Assembly (NCBI GenBank): GCA_020724465.1
Contig: DYGX01000001.1
Span: 1 to 64,000 of the forward strand
Direction of reading: 5' to 3'
From: Thermoflexus sp.
GTDB taxonomy: Bacteria; Chloroflexota; Anaerolineae; Aggregatilineales; Aggregatilineaceae
DNA length: 64,000 nt
The position numbers and the translations under genes are program-made. The notes under the pieces are model-generated. The model saw only the letters and a list, made by a program, of their open reading frames with translations, was not told the DNA's origin and did no database searches. Positions 9,492 through 38,634 of this stretch are shown here, piece by piece (positions within the stretch are counted from its first letter, which is position 1; every line of letters starts with the position of its first letter).

Positions 9492-9986
9492 ATGAACCTG
9501 CTACGTGGTTTTGCAACGACGCTGAAGTATCTGTTTGAAGACAAGGTCACCGTTCAATATCCGGAAGAGGAGCGGCCCGTCCGCGAGCGCTTCAAGGGGC
9601 GCCATGCGCTCAAGCGCTATGATAACGGCCTGGAGAAATGCATCGGTTGCGCGCTGTGCGCAGCGGCGTGCCCGGCGGACGCGATCTGGGTGGAGGCGGC
9701 GGAGAACACCGACGAGGAGCGCTACAGCCCAGGCGAGCGCTATGCCAAGACATACGAGATCAACATGATGCGCTGCATCTTCTGCGGGTATTGCGAGGAC
9801 GCGTGCCCGACGGAAGCGATTGTCCTTGAGCACGAGTACCGGCTGACGTTTTCCGACCGGCGTGACTCGATCTACACCAAGGAAATGCTGATCGATCCGC
9901 CGCCGCCAGGCGTGCCCGGCACGCCGCAGCAGACCGAGCCGGGGCGCTACACGCGCTCGATCCCGGAGATGAAGGACCCGCTATAA
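9492..9986 (+). CDS. nuoI: NADH-quinone oxidoreductase subunit I (N6a/N6b)
   Basis: A 164-residue 8Fe ferredoxin-like subunit that relays electrons toward N2. Both CX2CX2CX3CP sets are intact: Cys50, 53, 56, 60 and Cys95, 98, 101, 105. A hydrophilic tail of about 45 residues follows the second cluster. ATG 9492 follows a 75-base gap after nuoH that contains no recognisable gene. Confidence 0.95.
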   Translation: MNLLRGFATTLKYLFEDKVTVQYPEEERPVRERFKGRHALKRYDNGLEKCIGCALCAAACPADAIWVEAAENTDEERYSPGERYAKTYEINMMRCIFCGYCEDACPTEAIVLEHEYRLTFSDRRDSIYTKEMLIDPPPPGVPGTPQQTEPGRYTRSIPEMKDPL

Positions 9987-37329: not shown

Positions 37330-37388
37330 TTGGCACCTCGCCCTTGGCGCGTTATAGTTCAGGTAGGATCGACAATTTCATAGGCACC

Positions 37389-37515
37389 GCTTCAGGTGAT
37401 CGCAGGCCCGGATGCCGCGATCCGAAGGGGGGAAGCCGGTCTAAGTCCGGCGCTGTCCCGCAACTGTAGTGCGGGCGCGTGGTGCGCTCGCAGAGCCAGG
37501 TTACCCGCCTGAAGC
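37389..37515 (+). other. Cobalamin riboswitch aptamer
   Basis: The P1 helix is GCTTCAGG (37389-37396) with CCTGAAGC (37508-37515). The conserved core GGAAGCCGGTCTAAGTCCGG (about 37432-37451), CGCTGTCCCGCAACTGT (about 37451-37467) and the B12 box AGAGCCAGGTTACCCGCC (about 37493-37510) are all present. The segment between the ACTGT core and the B12 box is only about 25 bases, much shorter than in large class-I aptamers, so this is a compact, class-II-like cobalamin riboswitch. It senses B12 and should repress the downstream gene through the terminator at 37578. Confidence 0.92.
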
Positions 37516-37636
37516 CAGATACGGGGAACATCTCTCGTGGATTGGAGGTGGCGTATGCTGTGGGAATCGTAGACATCGCGCCTTCGCCAGAAGGCGCTTT
37601 TCTTGTTTGGGCATCAGTTGTGTAAAGGAGCACATC
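37516..37636 (+). other. Riboswitch expression platform and leader
   Basis: Bases between the aptamer and the start codon carry the kissing-loop region expected downstream of the aptamer, an intrinsic terminator (37578-37608) and the ribosome-binding site AAGGAG (37625-37630). No other gene is visible in 37330-37636. Confidence 0.7.
37578..37608 (+). terminator. Riboswitch-controlled intrinsic terminator
   Basis: GCGCCTTC (37578-37585), loop GCCA, GAAGGCGC (37590-37597), then TTTTCTTGTTT. It lies 62 bases after the aptamer and 29 before the start codon, the usual place for a transcription-attenuation platform. Confidence 0.85.
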
Positions 37637-38578
37637 ATGGTAAAGCGGCTTGTGGCAGTTCTGATGGCTGTGGTTATGTCTGTTTCCGCGGGGGCGGGCG
37701 CGCTGGCTCAGGAACCGGCTGACGCTCTGAGCGCCGCGGTGGACTATCTGGTGACGATCCAGAACGATGACGGCGGTTTCTCGAACGGCTTTGCGCCGGA
37801 AAGCGATCTGGGCACGACCGCCGATGTGGTGGTGGCGCTTGTGGCGGCGGGCGAGGACCCGAACGAACTTCGCTCGGCGGATGGGCAGACCCCGCTGGAC
37901 CATCTTAGCGTGCAGCTTGACGCAGGCGTGGCCGAGAGCGCCGGACAGCTCGCCAAGATCGTAACGGCGGTTGTGGCCGCCGGCCAGGACCCGCGCGACT
38001 TCGCAGGGCACAATCTGGTCGATGAACTGCTCGCGTTGCAGGATGAGGAAGGCGTGTTCGGCATGGGAGCGTTCGAGCACTGCCTGAGCCTGATCGCGCT
38101 GCAGAACGCCGGCGAAACGCGGCCCGCAGGGGCGGTCGAAGCACTGGTGGCCGCCCAGAACGAAGACGGCGGCTGGGGTTTTGTCGCCGGCGAAGCGTCG
38201 GACACGAACACAACCGGGCTGTGCTTGCAGGCGCTCGCGCTTGAGGACGCGCCGGATGCCGTTGAAGCGGCGCTGGCCTATCTGGCCGGAATTCAGAATG
38301 AGGACGGCGGCTGGCCGTATCAGAACCCGAGCGACTTCGGCACAACGAGCGACGCCAGCTCAACGGCGCTCGTCATTCAGGCGCTGGCCGCGCTGGGCGA
38401 GGACCTGGAAGCGTGGAACGCCCCGGATGCATTCCTGCTGAGCCTGCAAGAACCCAGCGGCGCGTTTCGCTATCAGAGCGAGGTTCTGGGCGGTAACGTG
38501 CTGGCGACGGTGGCAGCGATTCCGGCGCTGGCGCTTGTTCCGCTCAACCATTGGGTGCCGGTGCCTGTCGCTGAGTGA
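37637..38578 (+). CDS. Secreted prenyltransferase/squalene-oxidase-type repeat protein under cobalamin control
   Basis: A 313-residue protein with a cleavable Sec signal (about residues 1-24, ALA cleavage site) and no lipobox or C-terminal anchor. The mature part is built from about six repeats of ~45 residues, each with a motif like IQNDDGGFSNG, LQDEEGVFGMG, QNEDGGWGFV, IQNEDGGWPYQ and LQEPSGAFRYQ, typical of the alpha/alpha-barrel (terpene cyclase/prenyltransferase repeat) fold. It lacks the catalytic acid motif of squalene cyclases as far as I can see. The same fold forms the alpha domain of eukaryotic cobalamin carriers. Its own B12 riboswitch strongly suggests a role in cobalamin capture. 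ATG 37637 follows AAGGAG. Confidence 0.9.
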   Translation: MVKRLVAVLMAVVMSVSAGAGALAQEPADALSAAVDYLVTIQNDDGGFSNGFAPESDLGTTADVVVALVAAGEDPNELRSADGQTPLDHLSVQLDAGVAESAGQLAKIVTAVVAAGQDPRDFAGHNLVDELLALQDEEGVFGMGAFEHCLSLIALQNAGETRPAGAVEALVAAQNEDGGWGFVAGEASDTNTTGLCLQALALEDAPDAVEAALAYLAGIQNEDGGWPYQNPSDFGTTSDASSTALVIQALAALGEDLEAWNAPDAFLLSLQEPSGAFRYQSEVLGGNVLATVAAIPALALVPLNHWVPVPVAE

Positions 38579-38602
38579 TCCGGGCGGTTGGGTCCGGACT
38601 GG

Positions 38603-38634
38603 GCGGGGTGCGCCGGGCGCGCCCCGCTTTTTTT
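38603..38634 (+). terminator. Intrinsic terminator after the B12-regulated gene
   Basis: A 10-base stem (GCGGGGTGCG 38603-38612 with CGCGCCCCGC 38618-38627) with a 5-base loop and seven T residues (38628-38634). The gene is therefore a single-gene transcription unit. Confidence 0.9.

Follow-up and report, generated by a model that had tools for sequence, protein, structure and literature searches.

Intrinsic factor and transcobalamin are usually regarded as animal inventions. Together with haptocorrin, these carriers join an α/α toroid (PF01122) to a β domain, and the system described here, which came to light in the window (the whole 64,000-nucleotide stretch of Thermoflexus sp. DNA that was analyzed), likewise comprises an exported α/α toroid and a β-grasp domain. 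The resemblance extends to the β fold, which a Chloroflexota β model matches specifically, and to α-β fusions among relatives. In contrast to the animal carriers, this system is bacterial, its α and β halves are separate genes with β fused to BtuF, its toroid protein (P0001) falls below the PF01122 cut-off, and its B12 binding is putative.

A connection between bacterial and animal proteins was drawn by Burroughs et al. (2007) in an in silico study centered on low-GC Gram-positives and some archaea, which predicted B12 scavenging by bacterial transcobalamin-like SLBB β domains fused to toroids, and which proposed that animals acquired transcobalamin-like domains from bacteria (PMC1796856). These SLBB proteins (Pfam DUF4430) also combine an exported β-grasp domain with a toroid near CbiO/CbiQ-type transporters (PMC1796856). 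However, the β family described here has no Pfam model, the window's genome lacks DUF4430, and, as far as the available portion of the 2007 SLBB account goes, neither a split nor a β-BtuF fusion is among the features described (PMC1796856). A term search of the same text returned neither "Chloroflexi" nor "riboswitch," and we found no test in the literature of the proposed bacterial origin of the animal carriers.

Secreted or surface capture of B12 that feeds a transporter is also seen with BtuG, BtuH and DUF4465 proteins of Bacteroides, but these have other folds (an augmented β-jellyroll in DUF4465) and belong to outer-membrane systems (PMC6143338, PMC10404256, PMC13398666). Relative to the BtuFCD importer, P0002, the β-BtuF protein of the window's genome, differs by an added intrinsic-factor-type β domain at the BtuF N-terminus. 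The SCO2321 and SCO2322 families (NF053823 and NF040672) are matched by α and by the β domain of P0002, both below the curated cut-offs; these families carry no annotated function, and our literature search found no relevant paper on them. The initial annotation, made from the DNA alone, knew of no described example of such an architecture. Scavenging by a toroid with a transcobalamin-like domain had in fact been predicted in 2007, but we found no description of this α/β family, its split or the β-BtuF fusion in the open-licence literature. What is new is a β family outside Pfam that occurs in Chloroflexota, is riboswitch-controlled and split from α, and includes a β-BtuF fusion.

All features of the α unit lie on the plus strand of the window. 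A consensus scan placed a sigma-70-like promoter (TTGGCA-17-TATAGT, 10 of 12 matches) at 37330..37358, one such site being found against 0.2 expected in shuffles. Behind it is a full-length cobalamin riboswitch aptamer (RF00174, 37377..37526), whose cmscan match spans the whole model (positions 1-189) and scores 67.5 bits against a gathering score of 31.5, with an E-value of 1.7e-14 for the window. Direct reading and the RF00174 alignment agree on a perfect, 8-bp P1 helix, in which GCTTCAGG at 37389..37396 pairs with CCTGAAGC at 37508..37515, and on a B12 box, GAGCCAGGTTACC, at 37493..37505. The compact aptamer first noted by eye is thus present with a closed P1 and its B12 box, at a score above the curated threshold.

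The intrinsic terminator that had been taken for the expression platform lies between the aptamer and the α gene at 37578..37607 and consists of GCGCCTTC-GCCA-GAAGGCGC (hairpin 37578-37597) and a T-rich tail. When the window's leader is aligned with eight from close relatives, nine in all, the aptamer, the terminator hairpin and a near-invariant block between them, ATCTCTCGTGGATTGGAGGTGG (37530..37551), are kept, and the surrounding sequence varies. The hairpin is retained with an altered stem sequence in most close relatives, and the ATCTCTCGTGGATTGGAGGTGG block probably belongs to the expression platform and pairs with the aptamer. Direct reading located a ribosome-binding site, AAAGGAG, at 37624..37630, with AGGAG at the equivalent position in most relatives.

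The α gene itself (37637..38578), defined by its open reading frame, Pfam matches, structure model and homologues, encodes P0001, a 313-aa secreted α/α-toroid protein. Its N-terminus has a hydrophobic stretch ending in ALA-Q, which by eye is a putative signal peptide. A strong intrinsic terminator (38601..38634) follows, with a 13-pair stem that includes 10 G-C pairs (hairpin 38601-38629) and then T5. By eye, the unit is flanked by acpS on its upstream side and, past this terminator, by a zinc-type alcohol dehydrogenase-like gene, so α forms a single-gene unit, as the initial annotation had it: a lone gene with a signal peptide and α/α repeats, closed by a strong terminator. The Pfam matches of P0001 are squalene/hopene-cyclase and prenyltransferase toroid repeats. 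Against PF01122, the eukaryotic cobalamin-binding family, it reaches 11.4 bits, far below the cut-off of 25, and 17 of 44 α homologues match that model (E up to 0.1; best E 1.3e-6). Its best NCBIfam match is the SCO2321 family model NF053823, at 126.5 bits and below the equivalog cut-off of 300.

AlphaFold2 modeled P0001 as an α/α toroid (pLDDT 95.3, pTM 0.90). The nearest folds found with VIA-align are squalene-hopene and drimenyl cyclases, with Z about 25-26 and an rmsd of about 2.8-3.2 over 255-265 aligned residues. Transcobalamin is among the Foldseek matches of the model (E 4.8e-6), where terpene cyclases score higher, and is not among the best 50 VIA-align matches listed, all of which have Z above 21. 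The expected likeness to intrinsic-factor-type α domains held for the toroid fold and for the transcobalamin match, but the fold is not exclusive to such proteins and the cyclases are closer. Because the toroid is common to B12 binders and terpene cyclases, the fold does not decide function.

With squalene-hopene cyclases and drimenyl diphosphate synthase as its best Pfam and fold matches, α could be an exported enzyme of the terpene cyclase or prenyltransferase type whose regulation by B12 is incidental. However, none of the 44 aligned α homologues, P0001 included, has the DxDD motif of class II terpene cyclases; DTNT of P0001 aligns with DVDD of drimenyl diphosphate synthase, and where the cyclases have their general acid, 39 of the 44, P0001 among them, have Asn. 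A terpene-cyclase active site, which the initial annotation had named as evidence against B12 capture, is therefore not what we found. The protein also bears an export signal, and α is consistently paired with an intrinsic-factor-type β domain and vitamin transporters (see below). On the missing motif, the export and the context, we rejected the enzyme despite those matches and give it almost no credence.

The connection to B12 was examined across 400 Chloroflexota genomes, in which a cobalamin riboswitch was counted if it preceded α on the same strand by no more than 2 kb. The 88 α homologues in 78 of these genomes have a riboswitch within 2 kb in 70 cases and within 500 bp in 65, and the 70 α-linked riboswitches make up nearly half of the 150 cobalamin riboswitches in the 400 genomes. 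At a density of some 2 riboswitches in each 4-5 Mb genome, roughly 1 gene in 10,000 should have one within the 500 bp before it. The observed 65 of 88 is beyond chance, and we discarded coincidence as an explanation. A second collection was scanned with a narrower α alignment, the broad one being too divergent; cobalamin riboswitches were found upstream of α in an Anaerolinea MAG (L107, 91% identical), L108-L113, L115-L118 and Chloroflexus islandicus (L153), and none was seen upstream of α in L150 and L175.

Several observations concern the wider range of α proteins. Five genomes of family f36 (Herpetosiphon-like) hold a second, more distant α paralogue (G034:C3, G078:C2, G102:C34, G110:C1:5773768-5774565 and G281:C9) with neither a riboswitch nor a β match nearby. 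Small genomes of 0.9-1.5 Mb (G298:C1, G138:C31, G057:C70 and G368:C1) contain α-like toroid genes in open frames of 373-892 aa, with no cobalamin riboswitch detected anywhere in them. Many α proteins (for example L067, L071, L072, L075, L080 and L083) have a C-terminal tail in which an LPxTG-like motif is followed by a hydrophobic stretch and basic residues; these tailed homologues look wall- or membrane-anchored, and P0001 and its closest relatives have no such tail.

We applied a profile seeded from the β domain of P0002 to the α neighborhoods. A small secreted β domain lies directly behind α or is fused to it in 39 of 40 neighborhoods in other genomes, the sole exception being a locus cut by a contig end, and of the 80 loci in the second collection, 58 have a β gene close behind α or fused to it. 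Matches to the SCO2322 family model adjoin α genes in dozens of Chloroflexota genomes, and four loci (L086, L089, L092 and L176) encode α-α-β as a single polypeptide. In L107-L115, which are close relatives of P0001, α stands alone with no β adjoining. An ECF-type transporter comes after α-β in most of the neighborhoods read; a typical operon (L126) contains α, β, an ECF S component (PF12822), a CbiQ-type EcfT and a two-domain ECF ATPase. Homologues are thus associated both with B12 riboswitches (70 of 88) and with transport genes, mostly ECF transporters. Of the partners that the initial annotation had proposed to look for in related genomes, ECF transporters adjoin α-β, a BtuFCD-like set occurs apart from α in genera of the window's family (see below), and DUF4430 was seen neither in the window's genome nor among 38 β homologues. 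Two β proteins stand in tandem behind a single α gene in L102, L097, L104 and L179, where α is a single, double or triple toroid, which suggests that the α:β stoichiometry varies among loci.

The β proteins have no Pfam match. DUF4430 (PF14478) was found in none of 38 β homologues and nowhere in the window's genome, so we rejected the idea that the β domain is DUF4430. A PDB sequence search with the β profile gave solely low-complexity or insignificant matches, and structure prediction was therefore needed. The AlphaFold2 model of a β homologue of P0002 (242 aa; pLDDT mostly above 90 in the core) aligned with the β domains of haptocorrin, intrinsic factor and transcobalamin and with the bacterial structure 3u7z at Z 11.1-12.4 over 96-102 residues. 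The next rows have Z 5.9, and because of this fall we consider the fold assignment specific.

In the window's genome, the β domain is located on another contig, at the N-terminus of the 504-aa protein P0002, which ends in a BtuF-like periplasmic-binding domain and is encoded between btuC and btuD. A second cobalamin riboswitch (RF00174) precedes this operon. The initial annotation had allowed for a partner encoded elsewhere, and a β domain fused to BtuF in a separate riboswitch-controlled operon of the same genome fits that description. A β profile made without P0002 still found its β domain at E 5.4e-47, and the SCO2322 family model NF040672 matches this domain at 37 bits, against a curated cut-off of 85. 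The C-terminal domain matches Peripla_BP_2 (PF01497) at 95.9 bits, with FecCD and ABC genes adjoining, and P0002 scores 36.2 bits with the NCBIfam BtuF equivalog, below its cut-off of 234. Together with P0003 and P0004, this domain forms a Peripla_BP_2/FecCD/ABC set resembling BtuF, BtuC and BtuD.

The order btuC, beta-btuF, btuD is identical in five other genera of the family. A riboswitch was detected before the operon in four of them, the contig of the fifth beginning shortly before btuC, and all five have a solo α. None of the seven family members without α has the fusion (Fisher p 0.01-0.025 for co-occurrence, uncorrected for phylogeny). Of the ten other α loci of the family, nine have a riboswitch and one begins within the gene. 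Four α-bearing members (G400, G401, G402 and G410) have no β domain by profile search, and one of them, G402, is rated 99% complete, which speaks against a strict dependence of α on β. We discounted weak β-profile matches in G402, G407, G410 and G416, which align solely with the profile's Pro/Thr-rich linker region.

CbiC is a marker of de novo corrin-ring synthesis. It is absent from the window's genome, which therefore probably does not make the corrin ring de novo. This absence and the presence of four B12-binding-domain genes fit an organism that uses B12 and has to import corrinoids.

One reading of these data is that α diffuses freely and binds B12 by itself, and that β-BtuF binds independently, with no joint site. 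The solo α gene of the window and its closest relatives, which encodes no membrane anchor, would suit such a binder, as would the four α-bearing family members with no detectable β domain. However, a β gene directly follows α in nearly all other Chloroflexota, several genomes encode α-α-β as one protein, and the β-BtuF fusion is confined to α-bearing genomes, which makes a lone binder unlikely. Alternatively, α might aid uptake without touching the corrinoid, as a scaffold, surface attachment or docking site for the β-bearing protein. Toroid folds have many roles, and C-terminal anchors are present on many α homologues, but in known α-β proteins with the same two folds the toroid is half of the B12 site (PMC1796856), and we consider this role less probable still.

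We instead judge it likely that α is one half of a split, secreted B12-capture system of the intrinsic-factor/transcobalamin type and that β-BtuF is its partner. Because a secreted α half occurs with a β half fused to a transporter binding protein, B12 capture is probably animal-like. When B12 is plentiful, the riboswitch would form the terminator and turn the α gene off; when it is scarce, the α/α-toroid protein would be made and exported. Outside the membrane, α would meet the intrinsic-factor/transcobalamin-type β-grasp domain of P0002, and the corrinoid, held between toroid and β domain, would move on to the BtuF domain fused to the latter and then be imported by BtuCD. The α unit and the btuC/beta-btuF/btuD operon would each be repressed by B12 through a riboswitch of their own, and in relatives the α/β pair would work with an ECF importer. 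We infer B12 binding, α-β contact and the hand-over to BtuF from the riboswitches, secretion-type N-termini, folds, neighborhoods, fusions and co-occurrence that we computed. Of the extracellular scavenging first suggested, "alone or with a partner," the sequence data favor the partnered version and make a protein working alone less likely. With somewhat less assurance, we favor the fuller proposal that the separately riboswitch-controlled halves, α and β-BtuF, form one corrinoid site that delivers directly to BtuCD, and that related Chloroflexota use the pair with an ECF importer, so that it is a portable capture module for two unrelated transporter types.

A widespread, B12-regulated bacterial family thus has both halves of such a carrier, as separate genes, fused, and attached to two transporter types. 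The Chloroflexota include cultured members such as Chloroflexus and Herpetosiphon. With both halves present in a phylum that has cultured members, B12 capture and the origin of the animal carriers become directly testable. Our results also suggest a function for proteins that databases name merely SCO2321/SCO2322 family or squalene-cyclase-like.

Two further observations concern B12-related loci outside the window. A 21-kb contig of the same assembly (L005, G000:C7) carries two cobalamin riboswitches that are much stronger, at 2471-2679 and 9545-9742 (129.5 and 121.1 bits), and, by eye, metE-like, class I and class III ribonucleotide-reductase-like and LysR-like genes. It may be a contaminating contig, because style and score differ from those of the window's contig (genome contamination 4.3%). 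Finally, two genomes of the same order (G425 and G418; loci L193 and L194) each have two BtuF-type domains in tandem within a frame of about 600 aa; in one of the two genomes, the second copy contains an in-frame TAA.
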